29,827 nucleotides of DNA. Origin: a virus. This document shows, one piece after another, positions 2,084 to 22,687 of this stretch. The notes under the pieces were generated by a model, which worked only from the letters and a program-made list of their open reading frames with translations, was not told where the DNA came from and did no database searches. Positions within the stretch are counted from its first letter, which is position 1. Each line of letters starts with the position of its first letter. Location: positions 1 to 29,827 of IMG/VR virus record IMGVR_UViG_3300031707_000119; one strand, written 5' to 3'. The position numbers were made by a program, and so were the translations under genes.

Positions 2084-3199
2084 TTATGGTTTATAATTCT
2101 TGGGCCATGCCCCAAATTTTGTCCTATATGCCCCACTTATTGCCTTGATCGTCGCGGTCTGGCAAACCGTATCCGGCGGATAGACGCCGGGGAGATGTTC
2201 GAAGTTTATTAGTCTGTCCCTGCCCCCCCTCGTGGTCGGATAGTTCGATAGGATATACGTCGCCATCTTCGCCCATGTCTCCGCCGAAGGCCGCGCCCCC
2301 TTGTCCCGCTTGTCGCACTTACTGTTACCCGAATAGCACCCATCATCGGAGAAGATTTTGCGGATGGGGTTCTTGCCCCATCCCCAGAGTGCTTGGTCAA
2401 CATCGGCTCCGAATGGACGCTCCGGCCCTTCTGCCGCGCCCCCGCACCCGTGAATCTCTCGATACATATCGAGCTTGGCCTCTTCCCCGAATGCTACGCC
2501 GACATCCTTCTTGATGAAATCGAGCGGGCAATATCCGGTGTCGTCATATTCATTGTTGCCGAGATACTTCCGTTTCATCATCGTCGCGCCATAGGTCATG
2601 CGGTTGAAGTCCAGTTTGCGGAGTTTGATGTAGGGGAAGATGACGCGCTTGGCAAACGCGGGGAAGGCCGCATTATTCATCTCGTTCCCAAATGCCCAGA
2701 TAATGTCCGCGTCCTTGAACCTGAGAGTCATTGTCGACACCCACCGCTTTGTGTAGACGTCGGCGGCGGGGTCATAGAGCGTCGTGATGCCCTGCGTGTT
2801 CGAGACCCAGGGCGACCACTTGGAATAGCCGCCGTGGAACTGGCAGTTGTCGAATAGGCAAAACATGACCGTCATATTCAGGCCGTTTATAATCTCGATG
2901 ACCCGCTTAACGATAGGGAAGTAATGCGTGTTAAATGCGCTCAAGTCCCATTTGTCCCGTGAGGTATCGAGGAAGTAGGGCTGGAATTGAGACGCCTTGC
3001 CGTACTTGTGCGACCCCCAGACTCCCCACGGAAGGCAACGGACGAAGTTGGCCCCGGCATCGGCAATCGCCTTAAGGTGTTTCGTCAGCGCCGTTTCGTC
3101 CAGAATCCATGCCTGCCCGTTGAAGGTTACAAACTTCGCGTCATCCTGGAATAGGCCCATGAGGCCATAGCCGATCCCGCACTTGTCATCAGCGAACAT
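2084..3199 (-). CDS. glycoside hydrolase-like (GH clan A type) tail-associated protein
   Basis: A 371-residue protein resembling a TIM-barrel glycosidase. In residues counted from the alternative GTG start at 3202, the features are: early beta-strand with FVRCLPWGVWG (53-63), TVMFCLFDN (111-119), and WAFGNEMN (169-176), in which N173-E174 matches the Asn-Glu acid/base pair at the end of strand 4 in GH5-like enzymes. INFEHLPG with E335 is a candidate nucleophile region. The enzyme would cleave a surface polysaccharide during adsorption, as phage tail depolymerases do. GGAGGAGTG precedes the start; ATG at 3199 has better spacing than the GTG at 3202. It is the last gene of the late operon, just after the tail-fibre cluster. 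There is no signal peptide, consistent with a virion protein. The fold is moderately supported; the substrate is unknown. Confidence 0.55.
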   Translation of the reverse strand: MFADDKCGIGYGLMGLFQDDAKFVTFNGQAWILDETALTKHLKAIADAGANFVRCLPWGVWGSHKYGKASQFQPYFLDTSRDKWDLSAFNTHYFPIVKRVIEIINGLNMTVMFCLFDNCQFHGGYSKWSPWVSNTQGITTLYDPAADVYTKRWVSTMTLRFKDADIIWAFGNEMNNAAFPAFAKRVIFPYIKLRKLDFNRMTYGATMMKRKYLGNNEYDDTGYCPLDFIKKDVGVAFGEEAKLDMYREIHGCGGAAEGPERPFGADVDQALWGWGKNPIRKIFSDDGCYSGNSKCDKRDKGARPSAETWAKMATYILSNYPTTRGGRDRLINFEHLPGVYPPDTVCQTATIKAISGAYRTKFGAWPKNYKP

Positions 3200-3208
3200 C
3201 ACTCCTCC

Positions 3209-3619
3209 CTAGACACAGCAGTAGGCCACTCGGCAGGTCGCCGTATTGGCATCCGCCTTGTGCTCTATTTTTAGACTAATATTAAAATTCCAAACCCCCC
3301 AATAAAGCTCATTTACGGCAGGGGATTCCCCGGCTATCTTGGCCGCCATGTCCGTTATTATGGCCGTCCCATCAACCGTTATCTTGAGGAGTTGGTATTT
3401 TGCATCGGCCATGTTCCCCCCGGTGAACAGGATGGCTTGACCTTTTCCCGTAAGATCGACGACGGTCTCATAGGCCCCGCCCCCGCTGTGCGTGTCTGTA
3501 GCCGCCGTTGTGTAAATCATTTCCCCTCCCCCTGCCCCCGCCGTTAGTGAGCTAAGGCGTGTGTTGATATTTCGGAGTGCAGCTTCGTATTCTTTTTTAC
3601 TGGGCCAGGCATCGCTCAT
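3209..3619 (-). CDS. small phage tail-associated protein, unknown function
   Basis: A 136-residue protein. It starts with a helical segment (SKKEYEAALRNINTRLSSL, about residues 6-24), then a Gly-rich linker (TAGAGGGE), then a beta-rich C-terminal domain with VDLTGKGQAILFTGG and YQLLKITVDGTAI, ending in CCV. A short helix followed by a beta-sandwich is the usual layout of trimeric phage receptor-binding or fibre-tip proteins, but I do not recognise a family. ATG 3619 is chosen because GAGGAGG lies 6 bases upstream; a longer reading to 3658 ignores this site. It overlaps the end of the upstream gene by 23 bases and sits just before the glycosidase-like gene, in the tail-fibre part of the operon. 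Confidence 0.6.
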   Translation of the reverse strand: MSDAWPSKKEYEAALRNINTRLSSLTAGAGGGEMIYTTAATDTHSGGGAYETVVDLTGKGQAILFTGGNMADAKYQLLKITVDGTAIITDMAAKIAGESPAVNELYWGVWNFNISLKIEHKADANTATCRVAYCCV

Positions 3620-4499
3620 GCGCGTCCTCCTCGAATGGAAAGCCGATCCCCCGGACACTCTCTCGCGGCCGGAATGGCGGGTCGCTCACGAGTTCCACGA
3701 CGTGCCGCTCCGCCGCCGGGACCGAGGGCACGATAAGATCAAATATCGGCGTGCGCACGACAGCGATCCCGTGGTAAACGTCCCAGCTCATCGGCATCGA
3801 AAGAAGCCCCTGGAGGATATCGGCCAAAGCCTTATTCGTCGTCCAGGCCAAATCCATCCGCTCGGCCGCAACTAGGATCGTATCCTGACAATAGAAGGCG
3901 TGGGGAATGTGGAACCCAACCCGCAGGCCCGCATAGCGAAGGACGGGATTCGCAAATGGATGGCCCTGGACTCTTATATGCCTTTCGCCGACAATCGTAT
4001 GCTTGGAGTTCAGGGCCGCCTGCCATATCGGGTCAAAATATCCTTTGGCCCAAGTCGCGCAAAAGAACTCCCGGCAGCATTTTGGGAACCCCAGAAGTTC
4101 GCCCTGTGCGTCATTATCGCCCCGCTCGAAAGCCGCCTTGAACCTCAGGGTATCCGCAAGCGTCTTGGATATGATGACGCACAGGCTAGCCCGCTCGCCC
4201 GCCCGTGGCTCCTCGTGCCGGTGAGCAAATCCGTTAAAGTTTCGAACTCGCTTGATCGGCAGACTGACAAGCCCCTGTTCAGCCCAAGTCGCCGCAAGTC
4301 TCGGGAATTGGTCCTCGCCTATCGTCTGCCATGCGCAAGGCCGATGTCCCGCCGCGACGCTCGAAACTTCAAGGTCCGATACCATCGCCCCGATTTTGGG
4401 GATGATAGGAGCCCATTCTTTTCGCGCCTCTTCGCTCAGCCAGACAGTCCGGCATGACGGCGCCAGGTCAAGTCCCGGAATCAGTTTCATTTCAGACAT
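3597..4499 (-). CDS. unknown protein with GFPKCC motif next to the radical SAM enzyme
   Basis: A 300-residue protein beginning MSEMKLIPGLDLAPS. The gene overlaps the radical SAM gene by 8 bases. Its middle has ELLGFPKCCREFFC, a Gly-(Phe/Tyr)-Pro-x-Cys-Cys pattern reminiscent of uncharacterised DUF483-like proteins. Later it has VGFHIPHAFYCQDTI, giving further His and Cys residues that could bind a metal. The N-terminal part has another Cys (APSCRTVW), plus PCAWQTI. There is no signal peptide or membrane segment. Its position between a peptide-modifying enzyme and tail genes suggests an accessory or partner in the same modification (substrate binding, second-step enzyme or scaffold), but that is inference. 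A longer reading to 4712 would overlap the SPASM region of the neighbouring gene in another frame and was rejected. The family assignment is weak. Confidence 0.6.
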   Translation of the reverse strand: MSEMKLIPGLDLAPSCRTVWLSEEARKEWAPIIPKIGAMVSDLEVSSVAAGHRPCAWQTIGEDQFPRLAATWAEQGLVSLPIKRVRNFNGFAHRHEEPRAGERASLCVIISKTLADTLRFKAAFERGDNDAQGELLGFPKCCREFFCATWAKGYFDPIWQAALNSKHTIVGERHIRVQGHPFANPVLRYAGLRVGFHIPHAFYCQDTILVAAERMDLAWTTNKALADILQGLLSMPMSWDVYHGIAVVRTPIFDLIVPSVPAAERHVVELVSDPPFRPRESVRGIGFPFEEDAHERCLAQ

Positions 4500-5691
4500 C
4501 GGTATGATCTCCGTGTGGCTTATCCCCGTGCTCGTCGCCGTGCGCATCGCCGTGGCCGGAGCCTCCGGCCCATTTTCGCGCCCGTTCGTTCGAGTCCTTG
4601 AACTTAATATCCGGCATGATACCCCGCAATCTGGCCCGGACATGAGCGAAGAGCATCTTATATGCCTCGCAGAACCGGGTCCGGTTCCGCCAATCATTGT
4701 CGATACCCGCACCTCCGCAACCCCCGCTGCAAATACTCCAGAACTCGCATCCCTTACAGCCGCCGAGTTCCTGGGGGATCATCGCCAGGGCATGAACCCT
4801 TTCAGCACCGGGCCCCTCTGCGGCGAGCGCCTGAATCCCGTCCAGGGCCGCCCCCCCCTTGAGGCAGACACCGATGCCGCCGTCCTCCATGATGGCCGTC
4901 TCGGCTTGGGTCCGCCAGATATCGCAGCCGTTGAACGTGCAGGTCGAATCGCCGCCCTCGATGAGCATCTTCACGACGTCCCGGTAGGGATACCAGGCCC
5001 GCCCCGGATCCCCGAAGCAGAGATTCGCAAGCTGGACGAAAGCCGATCCCAGCTCATTGGGCGTCAACTCCTCATCCCGGAACCGGTCCTCATAAACGAT
5101 GACTTCATTAGTTCGGACTGACCGGATTCCCATGTTCTCCAGCCGGAGCAGGAACATCTCCGTAGAGCCAATAATATCCGGGGCCGCGTTGTATCGGCGG
5201 AGAAGCACGATAGCCGATACGCACAGTCCGGCTTCCACGGCCCGCTCCATATTTTCGAGCGTCTTATGTGTCAGCTCTTGAATCTTGCCGGGTGTCAGGT
5301 TGCCGTCATTCCAGCGGCCCTGATTCGTCACCGCCGTATCACCATCGATTGAAACCCCAACCCCGACGTTGAACTCCTTGAACATCGCCAGGTGTTCATC
5401 GGTTATAAGGACGCCGTTTGTCTGGATGGATGCCTTCCCATAAAGTTCGAACATCGTTTTAAGAATCGTTCGCAAATCGGTCAGCGGGAAAAGAAGCGGC
5501 TCGCCGCCGTGGACGCAGGGGGCCGAGTATTTTCGCCGGTTCTCCGGCGTCTCTTTCTCTGCCTCCCGGCGCAAGGTCGCCAGCATGGCTTCGAGATTAT
5601 AGGCGACTTTACCTTGCGTCTTTCGTATCCGCCGCTCATAGCAAGATCGACAAAGCCCGTTGCAGTCCATCAGCTTAAAATGCAGTCCCAT
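4492..5691 (-). CDS. radical SAM/SPASM peptide-modifying enzyme with His-X-Asp tail
   Basis: A 399-residue enzyme. C10-x3-C14-x2-C17 (CNGLCRSCY) is the canonical radical SAM [4Fe-4S] site; HGGEP at 61-65 and SIQTNG at 88-93 are the SAM-binding strands. The C-terminal SPASM domain is complete: C256-x14-G-x4-C276, then C312-x2-C315-x5-C321-x3-C325, then C341, so two auxiliary clusters are expected. Enzymes of this class, such as anaerobic sulfatase maturases and RiPP maturases, modify protein side chains. Residues 380-398 carry HGD four times and HTD once, copying the repeats of the tail protein encoded just upstream. The ATG shares one base with the TAA stop of that tail gene (TAATG), so the two are translationally coupled. 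The substrate is inferred to be the repeat tail. An anaerobic host and a ferredoxin or flavodoxin partner would be needed. Confidence 0.9.
   Translation of the reverse strand: MGLHFKLMDCNGLCRSCYERRIRKTQGKVAYNLEAMLATLRREAEKETPENRRKYSAPCVHGGEPLLFPLTDLRTILKTMFELYGKASIQTNGVLITDEHLAMFKEFNVGVGVSIDGDTAVTNQGRWNDGNLTPGKIQELTHKTLENMERAVEAGLCVSAIVLLRRYNAAPDIIGSTEMFLLRLENMGIRSVRTNEVIVYEDRFRDEELTPNELGSAFVQLANLCFGDPGRAWYPYRDVVKMLIEGGDSTCTFNGCDIWRTQAETAIMEDGGIGVCLKGGAALDGIQALAAEGPGAERVHALAMIPQELGGCKGCEFWSICSGGCGGAGIDNDWRNRTRFCEAYKMLFAHVRARLRGIMPDIKFKDSNERARKWAGGSGHGDAHGDEHGDKPHGDHTDV
4495..4554 (-). repeat. C-terminal His-X-Asp repeats of the radical SAM enzyme
   Basis: The last 20 codons encode five aromatic-X-Asp triplets (HGD, HGD, HGD, HGD, HTD) with 0-2 residue spacers, the same pattern as the C-terminus of the neighbouring tail protein. 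This may be a substrate-mimicking dock, an automodification site or a metal-binding tag. Confidence 0.75.
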
Positions 5692-8600
5692 TAATACTCC
5701 GAATCTCCGTGGGCGATATTTCCGTGCAGATCCTGGTGGGTGACGTCCTCGTGGGTTACGTCCGCGTGCGCTTCGTCCAAGTGCGTATCGTCGGCGTGCG
5801 TATCGACGTGCTCCCGGTCCCAGTGCTTGTCCAGATGCGCCGTGTTCAAGTGTTCATCTGTATATTCATCAACGTGGGTATCCGTGTGGCCATCCGCGTG
5901 CGTGTCCGTATGGTCAGTGTCTACATAAGCTGTGTTGGTGTGTCCGTGATCGTCATAGGCAACATTCTCGTGGTCGATGTCCGTGTAAGCGCTATCCTTA
6001 TGGGCATGGTCGTTATGCTCGAAGTCGGAATAGTGATCCCCGTGACCTACATTGGCATGATCTACATAACTGTCCTGGTGCGGAATATCGGTATGCGGGA
6101 CATCTGAATGGCTCCCGCTATCTTGGTGCGGCGTATCCTCGTGTGGGGTATCCGTGTGCGAAGCGTTCCCGTGAGGCGTATCCGTATATGCCGTATCCCC
6201 ATGAGAATTAGCATGAGTAACATTCGCGTGGGTGTCATAATGGGATTCGACGTGATCCTCGTCGGAATAGGGCGTATCGTCGTAGCTGTCGGCGTGGGGG
6301 ATGTTCGTCCAGTCATTCGCGTGGGTGTCGTCGCCGTGGCTGTCCTCATGGGGAACGTCTTCGTGGATATCGGTATGACTGTCGGAATGGGTGACATCAT
6401 TGTGCATGGCCCCCGTGCTCTGGATGTCCAGAACCGCTTCGACTTCGACCGTCGCCCGACCGGCGTTTTTTACCAGCGTCAACGCTCGGTAAACGTCCTC
6501 ATCAAGAACGGTCTGTGCGTTCCCCTCGCCGTCACGGATGGCTTTCGATATGACGATTTTCTCCGCTGGCCGGTGGCCCAAGAGTAGCGCCGGGACCGAT
6601 CCGGTTACACGCTTTTCCGGCGAGCGGATGATATTCAAATAGAACTGGGCCAAAAGCGTCGCGTCGGAATCGACCGTCAATAATGTTTCCTTCTCCAGCA
6701 CTTCGGCCTGGTCATATCGGAGCGCTATCTTCGCGTCCGTCACCTCTTCCGCCAGCCAGTTCTGGGTCGTGGGGTCTTGGCCGTACTTTACGACAACGGA
6801 TTTGCGGACCGGCGCTGTGTCATAAGCCAGGGAGAACGAGGCCATATCGAGTTGGTCAATCCGGGTCTCGGTCCCCGTTGTCCCTGCCGCATAGCGGAAT
6901 GCGCCGAATGTCCCGTTCGCCAACGGGATAAGGTGGAATACATTCGAGTCCTGGAGCTTCCGAATAAAATCCAAAACGCCGCCGGAAGGTTGGTCTGTCA
7001 AATAGGCGGCCAGCGGCTGGACCCGGTTCGCCTGAAGGTCCAGGAATGATTCCAGATCGATTTGGCTCTTCGGGATTGCCGGAGAATTGAACACGGTCAG
7101 GACTGCGTATAGGATATCCGCGCCGATGTTGCTGTAGGTTGCGTCCTGAATCTTGCACTTCGCGCCCTTCGCCTTGCAGGTAATGACGGCTCCCTCCGGG
7201 TCTGCAACAAGCTGAAACCAGCCATTAGCCAAACTTACGGAATAGTCCGTAGTCAGCGTGAGCGTGGCCCCGTTCTTATAGACTGCACTTATGGCTTCCA
7301 GCGCGTGCCCGGCGATCTTGTATTTCCAAATCGTCGTGTCGATACAGACTGGCGTAATATTATCCAACTCGCCGAAAAGGATAGGGATGGCCCGGCCGAC
7401 GGCCGTCGGGTCCAGGTTTGCGTAAGTCGTCGTATCATAGAGGCCCGCCGGGAGTGTGCCGAAAAGCCCCTCCCGCGCGTCCACGATCTCGAAAGTCGCT
7501 TCCTTGTCGTTTATGGAGGGCCTTGACGTCCGGCCCAAGAAGAGCGTCCCGAGCTCCGCGTAATCCGAGTCGATGGCCCCGGCCTTCAGCCAGAACTTCT
7601 TTAAATGCCAGATGTAATCTTCGAGCGCTTCATACCACCAACCGTCGTTCCCATATCGGAGCCCGCCCGCGGAGAACGCGACGTCCCCGATGTAATAGTC
7701 CCCGACGCTCTGGGTTATTTCCGGCGCTCCGCCCTGCGGGATGATGGCCCGATAGGGCGTCGGCTCAAGGATTCTCACCAGTGAAGCGTCGTCCAGGTAA
7801 AAGTAATAGACTTCGCCGAGGTCGATCGTTCCGGTTTTTACAGTGAATTTATAATCCGAATAATCATCATCAGCCGTGAAGGGAACCTCAACCTCAGTCC
7901 ATCCGGCGCTCGTGACACCAGTGACCTCATTATCGACCACCGCGCCCCATGTTCCGACCGTCGCGTTATACCAGACGTTTCCGGCGCTATCCTCCAAGCG
8001 CCACTTGACCATGATGCCCGGCGAGGCTACCGAACTCTTGAGATAAAATTTCACCCGACCCTTACATTCCGGGCGAAGGATTATTCCTGATTGATAGAGC
8101 GAAAGCGCCCCGGTCGTCGCGGCCGGGAGATACCAGTTGTCCAGGTAAAAAGTATTGGCCGCGTCTGCGTTGACGACCGTGACGATGATCTTGTCGATGG
8201 CGTCCTTATTCGCGTCCGAAACGCCGGAGATGTCCCAGGTGACGGTCTGCCAGGTATCGACCACGAGAACATTCGGCGTCGTTTCGGTCGTCGTCCCGCC
8301 GCTGTCGTGAATACCGATCTTGATATTCGATCCGGTCCGCCCGGCGTAGATGTCAAACTTTATGGTATCAATCCCAGTGAGGTCAATCGGCGTCGTGATC
8401 GTCCGGGTCAGCGTCTTATTTAGGCTTGTCGTGATGGCCCCGACCGCCTTCAGGGAATATGTCCCCTCCTGCTTTATCGTGCCTTCGGAATAGGACTGAA
8501 GCGCCGGGGTCGTAAGTGCGACCTTAATGATAACAATGCCCTTGCCACCGTTTCCGCCCGCGCCATTATCGAGCGCCCCGCCGCCGCCGCCACCCGTGTT

Positions 8601-9902
8601 GGGCGTCCCGGAATTGGCCGCGCCCGCCGAATATCGACCATTCGCCCCGCCGCCCAGGCCGCCGAGGCCATAGCCGAATCGACCCGCCCCGCCGCCACCG
8701 CCACCGTAATATTCCCCGAAATACTCTAGGCCGTCTCCCCCGTCGCCGCCTATTTGACTGGCTCCATCAGCTCCAACCGTATCGGCTCCGCCGCCTCCGC
8801 CCCCAGCCAGGTAATTACTCGTCACGCCAAAGGGCATTGCATCGCCGCCGTCATTGCCCTGGAGGGCTGTCCCGGCACCACCGGCCGCACTCGCCCTTCC
8901 ACCACCACCGCCGCCCGACCCGCCGGGATCACCCGCAATTTCGCGTCCGCCCCCGCCGCCCCCACCTTTCGCGGTCATCACTCCGAAGATTGAATCGCCG
9001 CCGGTTGCGCCCTTGAGATCCCTGTCCGTGCCGCCGAGTCCACCTTCGCCGATCGTTACGGCCATCACCCCGCTGACCGAATAAACATCGTCGTATAGCA
9101 GTCCGCCCCCGCCCCCGCCTCCACCGCCGCACTCGGAGTTTATGTCACCGCCCCCCCCACCCCCGCCCGCGACGACCAAGACCTCGGCATCAACCGAGCC
9201 GGACAAGACCGTAAACGTCCCGCTCTCATAAAAGGTGTGGATGCGATAGCCACCGGCCATCGTTACGGTCCCGCCCGTCGTGTTATACTCAGCGATATAA
9301 GCCGCCTGAGCCAGGGCGTCCGTCGCGTACTCCATGCGCTCGAACCACTTGTCCCCGGCATCGACCGTGAATTTGGCCGCATAGGCCCCGCCGTGGACCT
9401 CCGTCGCCTCGCGACTTATAGATGAACCCGACGATTCGCTCTTCGTCCACTTAGCTAATGCGGTCGCACTTGTCCAGTCCTCCAACCCGCCGTCAAGTAG
9501 CTTCTCAATCTCCGGCTCAAATACCGGGTCCCTGCCGCTTGAATCCATGCGGTCGCTGAATCCGATTAGGAAATACCCCAAGATGCAAAAATCATAAACA
9601 CTAAGTGTCTGATGATTCGGGATGTCATCGGTTGAAGTGTGAAGATAAATTCGCGGGTCCGCCGGATCCAGGTCCATGAAAAACGTAGATTGCGTCGCAT
9701 CGCAATCCGCCACTGAAAAAACCTCGGCATATTCGGACCCGTCCTCGATGACTTCGATGATCTCCCCGTCCGCCATCGGCGTGTAATATGAGCCGCCCCC
9801 ACTGGCCGTCCACTCCAGATATTCCAACTCGATGGCCGGGTAGTGCTCGCAGACGACGAGCCGCCGGGAGTCGGGGAGTTCGAGCAGATCGGCGAAATTC
9901 AT
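5691..9902 (-). CDS. large tail hub/fibre protein with Gly-rich domain and aromatic-X-Asp tail
   Basis: A 1403-residue virion protein, placed after the tape measure and distal-tail-like genes where the tail tip hub is usually encoded. Residues 1-120 are hub-like. About 130-190 begins a carbohydrate-binding-like beta-sandwich. Residues about 210-462 are a phage fibre Gly-rich domain (GGYRIHTFYESGTF, LVVAGGGGG, long Gly runs). About 463-600 and 605-715 are further CBM-like segments, each ending in YLDN/YLDD. About 720-1160 is a hub/baseplate-like region (TDQPSGGVLDFIRKLQDSN). Residues 1167-1403 are about fifty H/Y/W-x-D/N triplets. It would form the tip of the tail and contact the host surface. 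Its stop overlaps the start of the radical SAM gene, and the gene begins 2 bases after the preceding stop. The hub role is inferred from gene order; the domains are seen. Confidence 0.85.
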   Translation of the reverse strand: MNFADLLELPDSRRLVVCEHYPAIELEYLEWTASGGGSYYTPMADGEIIEVIEDGSEYAEVFSVADCDATQSTFFMDLDPADPRIYLHTSTDDIPNHQTLSVYDFCILGYFLIGFSDRMDSSGRDPVFEPEIEKLLDGGLEDWTSATALAKWTKSESSGSSISREATEVHGGAYAAKFTVDAGDKWFERMEYATDALAQAAYIAEYNTTGGTVTMAGGYRIHTFYESGTFTVLSGSVDAEVLVVAGGGGGGGDINSECGGGGGGGGGLLYDDVYSVSGVMAVTIGEGGLGGTDRDLKGATGGDSIFGVMTAKGGGGGGGREIAGDPGGSGGGGGGRASAAGGAGTALQGNDGGDAMPFGVTSNYLAGGGGGGADTVGADGASQIGGDGGDGLEYFGEYYGGGGGGAGRFGYGLGGLGGGANGRYSAGAANSGTPNTGGGGGGALDNGAGGNGGKGIVIIKVALTTPALQSYSEGTIKQEGTYSLKAVGAITTSLNKTLTRTITTPIDLTGIDTIKFDIYAGRTGSNIKIGIHDSGGTTTETTPNVLVVDTWQTVTWDISGVSDANKDAIDKIIVTVVNADAANTFYLDNWYLPAATTGALSLYQSGIILRPECKGRVKFYLKSSVASPGIMVKWRLEDSAGNVWYNATVGTWGAVVDNEVTGVTSAGWTEVEVPFTADDDYSDYKFTVKTGTIDLGEVYYFYLDDASLVRILEPTPYRAIIPQGGAPEITQSVGDYYIGDVAFSAGGLRYGNDGWWYEALEDYIWHLKKFWLKAGAIDSDYAELGTLFLGRTSRPSINDKEATFEIVDAREGLFGTLPAGLYDTTTYANLDPTAVGRAIPILFGELDNITPVCIDTTIWKYKIAGHALEAISAVYKNGATLTLTTDYSVSLANGWFQLVADPEGAVITCKAKGAKCKIQDATYSNIGADILYAVLTVFNSPAIPKSQIDLESFLDLQANRVQPLAAYLTDQPSGGVLDFIRKLQDSNVFHLIPLANGTFGAFRYAAGTTGTETRIDQLDMASFSLAYDTAPVRKSVVVKYGQDPTTQNWLAEEVTDAKIALRYDQAEVLEKETLLTVDSDATLLAQFYLNIIRSPEKRVTGSVPALLLGHRPAEKIVISKAIRDGEGNAQTVLDEDVYRALTLVKNAGRATVEVEAVLDIQSTGAMHNDVTHSDSHTDIHEDVPHEDSHGDDTHANDWTNIPHADSYDDTPYSDEDHVESHYDTHANVTHANSHGDTAYTDTPHGNASHTDTPHEDTPHQDSGSHSDVPHTDIPHQDSYVDHANVGHGDHYSDFEHNDHAHKDSAYTDIDHENVAYDDHGHTNTAYVDTDHTDTHADGHTDTHVDEYTDEHLNTAHLDKHWDREHVDTHADDTHLDEAHADVTHEDVTHQDLHGNIAHGDSEY
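5694..6404 (-). repeat. aromatic-X-Asp/Asn repeat region of the tail protein
   Basis: Codons 1167-1403 encode about fifty triplets of the form H-x-D, with Y in place of H in several (YDD, YSD, YTD, YVD), W once (WTN), and N in place of D in about ten (HAN, HGN, HTN, HLN). Spacers are 1-2 residues, giving a period of 4-5. More than forty His residues are present. The middle residue varies freely, and codons vary between units, so selection acts on the protein pattern rather than on a recent DNA duplication. There is no Cys in the region. Confidence 0.9.
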
Positions 9903-10664: not shown

Positions 10665-12782
10665 TCAGTATGCCCTCACCGCCCGTGGATGGATTTGCAT
10701 GAGTTCGGTTCGGCTTAACTCCCGGATAGTTTTTGAGATGAATACCTTCATCTCATGACCATCCAGATAGATATGATTCTCGATAGTAATCGGCTGGCCC
10801 ATCCCTCCGCCCGGTCCCATGATGGCCTCTCTGAGCTGGCGCGGCGAGCTGACGATCTCCGCCTCCCCGCCCTCGGCGACCTCATATTCCTGGCCGCTGG
10901 CTTGGGACATGAGCATGGCCCTCTGCTTGAAAATGGCCCCCTTCGCTGCGCCGACAGGTTGGCTCTTGATGAGTGCGATCTGGACGGCTCCCATCGCGGC
11001 AATTATCCCGGCTAAGATCGGACCGATGATGGGTCCGGCCGTCAGCGCTTTCGTGAATGCCTCGGCCACATTGATGATGGCCATCGCTATGGCGATCATC
11101 TTCTGTTGTCTTGCCGCCGCAATCTGGGCCGCCCGGCGTTTCATTTCATACTCGGCCTCAAGCGCTGTGATGGCCGTCTCTTTTTCCTTCTCGTTCATCA
11201 CGCTGTTTTGAATCAGCTCCAGCCGCTTTTGATATTCCTGATCGAGCATGAGCATCCGGTTTGTCGTTGACTGTTGCATGATGGCTTCGATCTGGCTAAC
11301 GACCGATTGGGCTCCGCTGAGGATCTGCTGAAACGAAACCTTCTGAGCGCCCGCCGCGTCTCGGGCGGCCTTCTCCCACGCCTTCGCTGTCTTGGGCGGG
11401 TCCTGAAGCATCCGACCTGTCGCCGCCGCAGAGACCGTCTGCATATTCCTGAAGGCTGGGATTACGGTATCGATGATCGTTTCTCCGAAAGCCGAGAGCG
11501 ATTTCTGCGCGGCATCCATGCCGATCTTGTAATCCGCCGCGCTGATGGTTCCTGCTTTCCAAGCCGCTGTCAGCACCTTCTGCTCATTGAACACGGCCTG
11601 CATCGCCGCCTTCAGCGGATTATATTTGTTGATGATCTCCTGGGCCGCAGCCGCCAGCTTATGCTTCGCGTCCGCCGCTTCCTTTGCCGCCTTGATCTCC
11701 GCCGCCGTCAAGTTATGGACGGCTGTCCCGGTTTGGTTAATCTTCGCGGGTGCACTCGTGAACATCCCCACTAATGCACCGAAGTCAACACCGAATATCT
11801 TCACCATCGGGGCCGCCTTCGCAAAAGTCTTACCCACGACATCGACCGCGATGGCCAACCCGGCATTGACCTTCGAGGCGTGCTCCGCCTTCGCGGATTC
11901 AAGACTCAATAAAAGCGTGATCTGCTTCAAGCCCGTGGTGAAGTGATCGAGAATCGGGCTTGACCTGACAAGTTGGTTCAGGAAGTTTGCAAATGCGCCG
12001 GAAGCCACGAAGCCTCCCATAGCTTGATTGAGGGCCACGATGGCTGTGCCAAGTCCTTCGGTCTTAATGACCGCTTTTCCGGCCGCCTCCTTGACCTCGT
12101 TCCAGTTATTGGCTAATTGTTTCAGCGCCCCACCGAAGGTCTCTGTCTCAGCCGTGGAACGCGAATAGAGTTTATTCAACTGATCGAGGAGTGATGCTTG
12201 CTTCTGTTCCGTCGTCAAGTTCTCGGCAACCCTGATTCCGACCCGGCCGAGTGCCGTATAATTCCCCTCCATCGCCTTTGTGACCATCATGGTCGCACTG
12301 TGAAGGTCTATCCCCATCGTCGATGCCAGGCCCATCGCGCCTTTCGTCGCCCGGTCAAGTCCCTGCTGGTCAAGGCTCGTGAGCTGGAGGAGCAACGCCT
12401 GGCTAGCCATGACCTGTTCGTCCGTGTAGGTCGTCGCCCGCATCTGCTCAGCGGCAAACTTCTTATAGTGCTGGATGTTCCCTTCGACAGTCCGGCCCGT
12501 GATCTCAAGTGCCGCGCTCAGGTTATTCTCGGCCTGCTCGGATTCGATTGCCGCCGCGATCGAACTGGTAACCATATCCTTGAGCGCACCAATCCCTTTC
12601 CGAAGCGCCCCGGCTACGAGTGTTCCGGCCGTGAATTGAGCAAAGAGGCTGCCGAATGGACCGCTTGAGCCTGCGGCCTTGGCCGTCGTTCCAGCCGCTT
12701 GGTTAATGGCCCCGTCTAAATCCTTAATGCTTTTGAGCGCACCGGTAGCATCGCACTCTACGATGTACTTGATGTCGGCCAC
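10665..12782 (-). CDS. tail tape measure protein
   Basis: A 705-residue protein that sets tail length and passes through the tail tube during DNA delivery. Residues about 25-60 are Gly/Ala-rich, followed by long helical stretches typical of tape measures (ESEQAENNLSAALEITGRT, MGIDLHSATMMVTKAMEG, a TMP_N-like segment). A hydrophobic block near 575-620 (AMAIINVAEAFTKAL, PIIGPILAGIIAAMGAVQI) could be the membrane-inserting part. The start is GTG 12782, directly after the TAA of the frameshifted chaperone reading frame, with AGGAGG 5 bases upstream. It is short for a tape measure, predicting a fairly short tail; usual proportionality is about 1.5 angstrom per residue. Following the G/G-T pair is the standard siphovirus order. 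Confidence 0.88.
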   Translation of the reverse strand: MADIKYIVECDATGALKSIKDLDGAINQAAGTTAKAAGSSGPFGSLFAQFTAGTLVAGALRKGIGALKDMVTSSIAAAIESEQAENNLSAALEITGRTVEGNIQHYKKFAAEQMRATTYTDEQVMASQALLLQLTSLDQQGLDRATKGAMGLASTMGIDLHSATMMVTKAMEGNYTALGRVGIRVAENLTTEQKQASLLDQLNKLYSRSTAETETFGGALKQLANNWNEVKEAAGKAVIKTEGLGTAIVALNQAMGGFVASGAFANFLNQLVRSSPILDHFTTGLKQITLLLSLESAKAEHASKVNAGLAIAVDVVGKTFAKAAPMVKIFGVDFGALVGMFTSAPAKINQTGTAVHNLTAAEIKAAKEAADAKHKLAAAAQEIINKYNPLKAAMQAVFNEQKVLTAAWKAGTISAADYKIGMDAAQKSLSAFGETIIDTVIPAFRNMQTVSAAATGRMLQDPPKTAKAWEKAARDAAGAQKVSFQQILSGAQSVVSQIEAIMQQSTTNRMLMLDQEYQKRLELIQNSVMNEKEKETAITALEAEYEMKRRAAQIAAARQQKMIAIAMAIINVAEAFTKALTAGPIIGPILAGIIAAMGAVQIALIKSQPVGAAKGAIFKQRAMLMSQASGQEYEVAEGGEAEIVSSPRQLREAIMGPGGGMGQPITIENHIYLDGHEMKVFISKTIRELSRTELMQIHPRAVRAY

Positions 12783-20611: not shown

Positions 20612-22687
20612 TCATCTTATGGGGTTCCCTTCGATATCTTCCGTCAATCCGACATCCACCCCGGCATTGATGCAGGGGGACGCGGGGAGCAGGTGGAAGT
20701 CGGGAGTGGCCGCAGATGTAATCAGGGGGTCTTCCCATAAACCATGAGTATCCCATCCAGTCGCGGCTTTGTAGGCGGCGAAATCGTCGGAGTGGTAAGA
20801 CACGCCATCGATAAGAGTATAAACCGTCCCGGTCGTTGTGTACCAACAGTTGTAATCGCAATCAGAAATAACCGCCTTGTCCGGCGCGAAAAGGCCACCC
20901 AGGGCAGAGTCAACGATAATGTTATTCTTGATAATGTCCCCGGACGACCCCGTCGGGGGAACCGAAATTCCATATCCGACCTTGGCCGTTATGTCATTGT
21001 TATAAACCTTAGCATTAGTAGTATAATAATATAAAAGAATCCCGGTCTTATATGCCCTAATAATATTCTGATAGATTTCAAAATCGTCGGCAGCTGAACC
21101 CGACCTACCTTCAATCAAAATACCGTTTCCGTAAGTCGCTGTCGGCACATAGGAGTCGGTATAATAAAGATTGTTGTATCTAATGATATTAGAGGCACAG
21201 GTGGCATCGGCGTCAGCGGATGTTATGAATTTTATTAGAGTGATTCCGCAATCATAAACTGTATTCGATTCGACAATAACGCCTTCTGTCGTATGTGGGT
21301 CATAATGTCCCGTCGAGTAAATCCCGGCAACAAGGACTTCGTAGATTGTATTGTGTGATATTGTCGAATCCGTGCCGCAGTTGACTTCTGCTCCGTATGA
21401 ATGATTCGCTGTGTCTATGCCCAGATGATGAATAGTATTATTGGTTATTGTGCTGTATTCTCGTAATACAATTCCATTGCCAGAAATGAAGGCAATTTCA
21501 AAGCCGTCTACGATGATGTAGTTATAATAATGGGACTGGTCCACCCAAATACCTCGGCCATTATCCAAGGACACTTCAACGGACGAATATCTGGTCGCCG
21601 GGTCGGTGGCCGCATAAACATAGAGCCTGTTGTTTGGGTCATCAAACCACCAATCGTATTCGGCCTCCAACTCATCCTTTGATGCTTTTGATGCCCCCCA
21701 GTGTATAGCCTCATCAATACCTACAAACCAATTTGTAATAGGGGTCGTTAGCTGGTCGGCATAATAAAGACTCCTACTGCCCTCGTCCGACTTAAATGTT
21801 GCGATGCACCCGCCCGCATACCGAGCCGTCGTCCAAGATAGCGTTGTTTCTATGGCGGCGGCCGCCGAAGTGGTTAAGGAACCCACAACATCGACAGGCG
21901 TAGATGAAGTTCTCCATAAAGTAGCAAATGAATTACTCCACGATTCTGAAGAAATCGTATTGCCGAGCTTAATGGCCGCAATACAAAGCTCTACGGCGGC
22001 GGTTATCGTATCCGTGGTTCCGCTAGACCGAGATGTTACTGTCCCGCCGGTATGGTCGGTTTTGGCCGTCTTATCGAGAACGGGATTCAAAATTCCAGAA
22101 TACTCAAATGCCTTTACGGTTGTGGTCGTAGAACTCGTCCATGTTACTGTCACATCTTTTGATTCGGCGGCCCCGGCAACCTTATACCAAATGCTTAGCG
22201 TGGCTGTCGTGGAGTAGAGCGCCGAAATCGCTAGCGTCCAATTGTTCTCTATGGAAGCATTGCCGATGACCGTAGTTCCAGTCGCATAACAAACGAGTAG
22301 ATTCCCTTCCGTGGGAGTGTTAGTAAAGGACGACGTGACTGGCGTTGTGCCGATTGTGGCGGCTGATCCCTGTGCCAACGCCGGGACGGGGGTGGGAACA
22401 TAGGACTCGGATATCCAGCTAACGGGAACGGTAGAGCCATATATCTTAGGCTTATCTCCTGTCCCATAAGACGAAAATGTAATAGGATGTCCGTTTGTTC
22501 CTGCCGATGGGATGACTAGGGTTTCCCGCCACGTACAGCCACACTTGAACAGGATGCTATCGCCAGGCGCAAACGTCGCCGCATTTACGTCGGCTATCGT
22601 GTCCCAGGCACAATGCACCCCGGTCAAGTCGGAGGTTGTCCCGTCGCCGCCAGCATCAGCCGCCGTATCGACAAAATGGTTTGCCAT
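20612..22687 (-). CDS. right-handed beta-helix tail spike-like protein
   Basis: A 691-residue protein. Residues 1-85 (MANHFVDTAADAGGDGTTSD, FAPGDSILFKCGCTWRETL, GTNGHPITFSSYGTGDKPKI) are the usual start of a parallel beta-helix of the pectate lyase/NosD type. Residues about 105-305 are an inserted beta-sandwich-like domain. From about 380 to 640 helix coils with Asn ladders are clear (YNYIIVDGFEIAFISGNGI, NTIYEVLVAGIY, NNLYYTDSYV, IIRAYKTGILLYYYTTNAKV, NNDITAK, IKNNIIVDSALG). The end DFHLLPASPCINAGVDVGLT is family-typical, but the usual final PDIGAYEY is missing. It probably binds or cleaves host glycan. GGGGGATAACA precedes the ATG. Confidence 0.8.
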   Translation of the reverse strand: MANHFVDTAADAGGDGTTSDLTGVHCAWDTIADVNAATFAPGDSILFKCGCTWRETLVIPSAGTNGHPITFSSYGTGDKPKIYGSTVPVSWISESYVPTPVPALAQGSAATIGTTPVTSSFTNTPTEGNLLVCYATGTTVIGNASIENNWTLAISALYSTTATLSIWYKVAGAAESKDVTVTWTSSTTTTVKAFEYSGILNPVLDKTAKTDHTGGTVTSRSSGTTDTITAAVELCIAAIKLGNTISSESWSNSFATLWRTSSTPVDVVGSLTTSAAAAIETTLSWTTARYAGGCIATFKSDEGSRSLYYADQLTTPITNWFVGIDEAIHWGASKASKDELEAEYDWWFDDPNNRLYVYAATDPATRYSSVEVSLDNGRGIWVDQSHYYNYIIVDGFEIAFISGNGIVLREYSTITNNTIHHLGIDTANHSYGAEVNCGTDSTISHNTIYEVLVAGIYSTGHYDPHTTEGVIVESNTVYDCGITLIKFITSADADATCASNIIRYNNLYYTDSYVPTATYGNGILIEGRSGSAADDFEIYQNIIRAYKTGILLYYYTTNAKVYNNDITAKVGYGISVPPTGSSGDIIKNNIIVDSALGGLFAPDKAVISDCDYNCWYTTTGTVYTLIDGVSYHSDDFAAYKAATGWDTHGLWEDPLITSAATPDFHLLPASPCINAGVDVGLTEDIEGNPIR

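Follow-up and report, generated by a model that had tools for sequence, protein, structure and literature searches.

The window analysed here is the whole 29,827-nt stretch of an IMG/VR virus record (IMGVR_UViG_3300031707_000119), in which Pfam and PHROGs matches identify integrase, capsid, prohead protease and tape measure genes, together with a tail tube gene match just below the cut-off. On the minus strand, the tape measure gene (P0005) is followed by P0004, by the gene of an array-bearing tail protein (P0002), by that of a radical SAM/SPASM enzyme (P0001) and by a DUF483-like gene (Table 1). As the tape measure gene lies nearby, we assign this cassette to the tail module. The stop codon of P0002 overlaps the start of P0001 by 1 nt and the stop codon of P0001 overlaps the start of the DUF483-like gene by 8 nt, so that the three genes are probably translationally coupled. 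Two other minus-strand genes of the window are worth recording: positions 2084-3202, where the tail module ends, give a weak, sub-cut-off match to Apiosidase-like glycoside hydrolases, and positions 20612-22687 encode a right-handed beta-helix protein, possibly tailspike-like.

Table 1. Features of the cassette and its surroundings (positions in the window).
Feature	Position	Strand	Basis or remark
DUF483-like partner	3597..4499	-	ATG start at 4499; 8-nt overlap with enzyme stop
Radical SAM/SPASM enzyme P0001 (putative maturase), 399 aa	4492..5691	-	Pfam Radical_SAM, invariant Cys columns, fold search
H-x-D tail of P0001, residues 380-399, HGDAHGDEHGDKPHGDHTDV	4495..4554	-	Sequence; AlphaFold disorder; kept in homologues
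GGSG linker preceding the H-x-D tail	4555..4566	-	Sequence
Array-bearing phage tail protein P0002, 1403 aa, tail-tip region	5691..9902	-	Gly-rich domain and C-terminal array
Aromatic-x-Asp/Asn array of P0002	5703..6404	-	~40 H-x-D/N plus Y-x-D, W-x-N; no cysteine
P0004, tail gene upstream of P0002	9905..10663	-	phrog_8610
P0005, tape measure protein	10665..12782	-	Places cassette in tail module

The enzyme and its DUF483-like partner

P0001 scored 32.1 bits against the Pfam Radical_SAM model (cut-off 29.5). The CxxxCxxC cysteines within its CNGLCRSCY motif (C10, C14 and C17) are invariant in the alignment, as are the SPASM auxiliary-cluster cysteines (C251, C256, C276, C312, C315, C321, C325 and C341; n = 44 sequences). 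In the AlphaFold model the core is predicted with confidence (mean pLDDT 87), residues 376-399 being disordered with a pLDDT below 50, and a structure search placed anSME and ChlB about equally near to the fold. Among the NCBIfam models listed, the best curated score was that for YhhB (73.8 bits for a cut-off of 445), followed by FxsB (53.2 for 370), AmcB (49 for 425), GrrM/OscB (39.7 for 310) and HxsB (23.8 for 370); all of these values lie far below the cut-offs, including those of the curated cyclophane maturases. With such scores, and with a fold as near to anSME as to ChlB, the assignment of a reaction class rests on the motif described below.

The DUF483-like protein of the window scored 11.6 bits against Pfam DUF483 (PF04467; gathering score 25). 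Among 29 family members, 23 matched DUF483 at E<=1, the best with an E value of 5.7e-6. By these profile scores the partner is related to DUF483 without being a clean member. Its structural model had as best match the uncharacterised 2guk (Z 7.1, residues 31-150), and this search gave no clear fold. A C-terminal methyltransferase domain is frequent in DUF483-like partners (e.g., L025, L028 and L064), the copy in the window being without it. Fusions of radical SAM and DUF483 domains occur in L058, L059 and L061 (Nitrospinaceae, SAR324), next to genes for large proteins whose C-termini carry HxD motifs.

Linkage of the enzyme to aromatic-x-Asp/Asn arrays

A profile of the enzyme gave two separate sets: the family, at E<= about 1e-91, and the remaining radical SAM proteins, at E>=6e-35. 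We compared 46 deduplicated family loci with 72 loci carrying other radical SAM enzymes. An array, defined as at least 8 H-x-D/N motifs, was present in 36 of the 46 family loci and in 0 of the 72 controls, the thresholds of this comparison and of the array-first scan below having been set after the data were seen; the corresponding counts for a DUF483-like gene were 45/46 and 0/72. Ten family loci failed the automatic array cut: the contigs of L032 and L034 are truncated; in L061, 5 of the 9 motifs cluster at the C-terminus of a nearby protein; L060, L062 and L071 have sparse motifs only; and at L069, L070, L072 and L078 no array was found at the locus. L069, L070 and L072 are from Bradyrhizobium, and the ORF upstream in L069 resembles another radical SAM-type protein. 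Viral contigs were also scanned from the array side with a DNA pattern for (HxDx)4, retaining ORFs with at least 13 H-x-D/N motifs. A family enzyme accompanied 11 of the 13 ORFs, nine in the fetched stretch and two elsewhere on the contig; the remaining two are Arg-rich low-complexity frames. The contig of L179, one of the nine array-first loci, is identical with that of L039. The preliminary description of the window had claimed a functional link between the enzyme and its neighbour: the distribution of arrays between family and control loci, together with a scan that starts from arrays and returns the same enzyme, strongly supports such a link.

The linkage spans unrelated candidate substrates: phage tail proteins, a relative of the central tail fibre protein J (L028), a lectin-domain protein (L066), and large proteins of Nitrospinaceae and Bacteroidota. 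Pfam and PHROGs provided no name for most array proteins. The Myxococcales array protein of L066 (1-4050) contains Tectonin and Tachylectin lectin domains, and the arrays are therefore not parts of phages only. The same kind of array, with nearly the same enzyme tail, is found in L002-L005 (79-93% identity) and in L057 and L204 (about 70-72%), and the trio persists at 30-36% identity in L006 and in the Thermus phages Cumys and phiMa. In phiLo the enzyme and DUF483 genes are together, and the arrays are found on the opposite strand at a distance of 4-8 kb.

The composition of the motif was determined in 53 arrays (9,112 aa) picked by HxD/N density. The residue at +2 of His is Asp in 90% and Asn in 6% of cases, the resulting 96% being partly by construction as the arrays were selected on that density; the counts are 1435 HxD, 101 HxN and 4 HxE. 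Outside HxD/N motifs, a free Asp or Asn is found at +2 of Tyr in 45%, of Phe in 42% and of Trp in 24% of cases, compared with at most 10% for every other residue. YxD occurs 133 times (18 expected) across 26 loci, FxN 40 times (7 expected) and WxN 9 times (1.9 expected). Proline occupies the central position in 1 of 1536 motifs, for 95 expected. The array rule is thus aromatic-x-Asp/Asn, its Tyr/Phe/Trp part being independent of how the arrays were selected. The His-X-Asp pattern initially proposed stands as the dominant form, but is better written [His/Tyr/Phe/Trp]-x-[Asp/Asn]. Cysteine is rare, and arrays that are nearly Cys-free disfavour thioethers. Many phage arrays (L025, L026, L027, L029, L035, L036, L042 and L007) share a short end cap, e.g., HxD-QPVLVG or QPVYVG, which is perhaps a recognition or capping element. 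Downstream of the DUF483 gene, L025 (10509-11717) encodes an additional protein with Pro-rich HND repeats.

The H-x-D tail of the enzyme

Residues 380-399 of P0001 (HGDAHGDEHGDKPHGDHTDV) come immediately after GGSG. Shuffling the whole protein 20,000 times never gave five HxD motifs in any 24-aa window tested, and when the tail alone was shuffled 4 of 100,000 trials reached five. The tail that the preliminary description had placed at 4495-4554 is present at exactly these positions and exceeds chance. It lies outside the SPASM domain, as had been claimed, the last SPASM cysteine being C341, and the repeats that the neighbour was said to share are indeed there, with about 40 HxD/HxN motifs in the last 234 aa of P0002.

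The tail is identical in L002-L005 and near-identical in L057 and L204. Across its 20 codons, close relatives show 0 amino-acid changes and synonymous changes only, compared with 12-15 amino-acid changes across the preceding 60 codons. This substitution pattern indicates that the tail is under purifying selection. In the family as a whole, 25 of the 46 loci carry a tail, which is accompanied by an array in 24. L034, the one without, is a phiLo-type contig 8 kb long, and in phiLo itself the distance to the arrays is 4-8 kb. Twelve array loci have a tail-less enzyme (L014, L016, L020, L023, L031, L068, L058, L059, L063, L065, L066 and L067). The expected co-occurrence of tail and array therefore holds almost always from tail to array but not from array to tail; tail-less homologues beside arrays exist at the family level, whereas all close homologues (70-93% identity) keep the tail. 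The enzyme tree, in which one row counted as tail-less (the second copy of L172) is truncated where the locus ends, requires the tail state to change 10 times, and well-supported branches impose 7 of these changes: the tail is recurrently gained or lost. We regard it as accessory, under selection and mostly present in phage enzymes, and not as a requirement of the chemistry; an obligatory role is not supported, given the twelve array loci above. Enzymes with more tail motifs tend to accompany arrays with more motifs (Spearman 0.49, p 0.002; 0.42 in phage-like loci), values that are uncorrected for phylogeny. Among the other genes of the family loci, none carries a convincing cluster of this kind besides the array proteins and the Pro-rich HND protein of L025, the remaining listings being sparse or overlapping coding genes in another frame.

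Proposed function and competing explanations

Among known radical SAM systems, one of the closest parallels is with the triceptide enzymes (XncB, OscB, YxdB, HaaB and YhhB), which are likewise radical SAM/SPASM proteins encoded beside a substrate with aromatic-x-residue triads. Their crosslinked pairs, all i to i+2, are Trp-Asn/Asp (OscB), Phe-Asn, Tyr-Asp (YxdB), His-Ala (HaaB) and His-Arg (YhhB) (PMC11002830). The donors and acceptors in the arrays are mostly precedented in that set (PMC11002830); a His-Asp crosslink is an extrapolation, as this pair is absent from those given there. In the present family the adjacent protein has the aromatic-x-acceptor triads expected beside a cyclophane enzyme but, unlike in triceptide systems, these triads number dozens within one large tail or surface protein, His-x-Asp is dominant among them, the DUF483 partner is constant, the enzyme often bears the motif itself, and its scores are below the NCBIfam cut-offs among the models listed. 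The His-Xaa-Ser system also combines a radical SAM maturase (HxsB) with a His-x-residue repeat; here the third residue is Asp/Asn instead of Ser, and P0001 reaches 23.8 bits against 370 for HxsB, so that neither its enzyme nor its repeat corresponds. The anSME enzymes provide the closest solved fold and the SPASM cysteine pattern. The target of an anSME is one Cys or Ser of a sulfatase, which it oxidises, and the setting differs in that no HxD arrays were found among the 72 control radical SAM loci. A literature search that covered few subscription journals returned nothing relevant on HxD repeats with radical SAM enzymes or phage tails.

Since the aromatic-x-Asp/Asn rule is the i,i+2 signature of triceptide enzymes, the best reading is that of a maturase stapling tail fibres. 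We put at roughly 0.6 the probability of the whole, i.e., a cassette for the maturation of a tail protein, formed by the array protein, the radical SAM/SPASM enzyme and the DUF483-like partner, that staples the array at dozens of sites, with the enzyme tail as a substrate-like peptide. The enzyme would crosslink the ring of His, and also of Tyr, Phe and Trp, to the beta-carbon of the Asp or Asn two residues on; such i,i+2 crosslinks (three-residue cyclophanes), repeated dozens of times, would make a stapled rod of the C-terminus of this tail-tip or fibre protein. Its components differ in strength: the array is very probably the substrate of the enzyme, while a cyclophane as product is favoured with clearly less assurance. 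The DUF483-like protein may share this substrate, either as a partner in its recognition or as a second modifying protein. If correct, this reading describes a new way of giving phage fibres rigidity or heat stability; the radical SAM crosslinkers known so far act mostly in the maturation of short peptides, whereas large virion structural proteins would here be modified at dozens of sites.

The arrays could instead be metal-binding His/Asp needles, with a tail that serves as a common metal tag and an enzyme that catalyses another change, such as hydroxylation, epimerisation or a formylglycine-type oxidation. In favour of this, His and Asp bind metals well, phage fibres include iron needles built on HxH (T4 gp37) and the fold is close to anSME; yet His is swapped for Tyr, Phe and Trp and not for other ligands, Asp is swapped for Asn and not for Glu (101 HxN, 4 HxE) and Pro is excluded within the triad, all of which make this explanation improbable. 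Less probable still is that the trio modifies DNA and that the repeats are incidental. The trio of Cumys and phiMa (an unknown protein, a radical SAM protein and a DUF483 protein) was described in 2024 with a tentative proposal of DNA modification, in a paper that notes cyanobacterial relatives next to deazapurine DNA-modification genes as well as DUF483-methyltransferase fusions (PMC11437467), the latter being confirmed among the loci studied here. We find that it is the same trio: the unknown protein is an array, and the radical SAM protein has an H-x-D tail; the passages found in that report do not mention H-x-D repeats. A role in DNA modification leaves the arrays near 36 of 46 enzymes, the result of the array-first scan and the aromatic-x-Asp/Asn rule without explanation, and we consider it very unlikely. 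Under the maturase reading the conserved trio gains an interpretation in protein modification, one that isolated members (the Thermus phages Cumys, phiMa and phiLo) make directly testable.

For the tail itself, the maturase reading offers two roles, that of a substrate mimic and that of an automodified segment, and it is rather probable that one or the other applies: flexible and selected as it is, it might be modified, or it might serve as an internal mimic holding the enzyme to the array or to the partner, in either case as an accessory acting mainly in phages. The preliminary description had also raised the capture of a piece of the tail-protein repeats by recombination. The coming and going of the tail, seen in at least 7-10 changes on the enzyme tree, agrees with a neutral piece of this kind, but the amino acids of the tail are unchanged despite synonymous changes in close relatives, and the tails have a Gly-rich consensus of their own (Gly at x in 56% of tail motifs, 15% of array motifs). 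Neither is there special DNA similarity to the adjoining array: tail and P0002 array match at 40 of 72 positions, codon-permuted controls at about 35-39, and the longest exact match is 11 nt. A recent capture is thus not supported, and neutral capture is quite unlikely. A refinement of the maturase reading, in which the array is still the substrate, makes the tail a docking peptide for a DUF483-like partner that recognises H-x-D. The partner is present in 45 of 46 loci and the fusions L058, L059 and L061 are tail-less, with DUF483 at the tail position; as a tail is also missing from many cellular members whose DUF483 gene is separate, we hold docking to be possible but on the unlikely side. 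More tentatively, and with somewhat less than even confidence, the family may constitute a previously undescribed stapling system, present in many phage lineages and several bacterial groups, whose phage enzymes would carry and staple their own copy of the motif as a tether or control. Tandem radical SAM genes of the family are found in L040 (7968-11415) and L172 (10403-13315), the tails of the two L040 copies having 12 and 25 H-x-D motifs.
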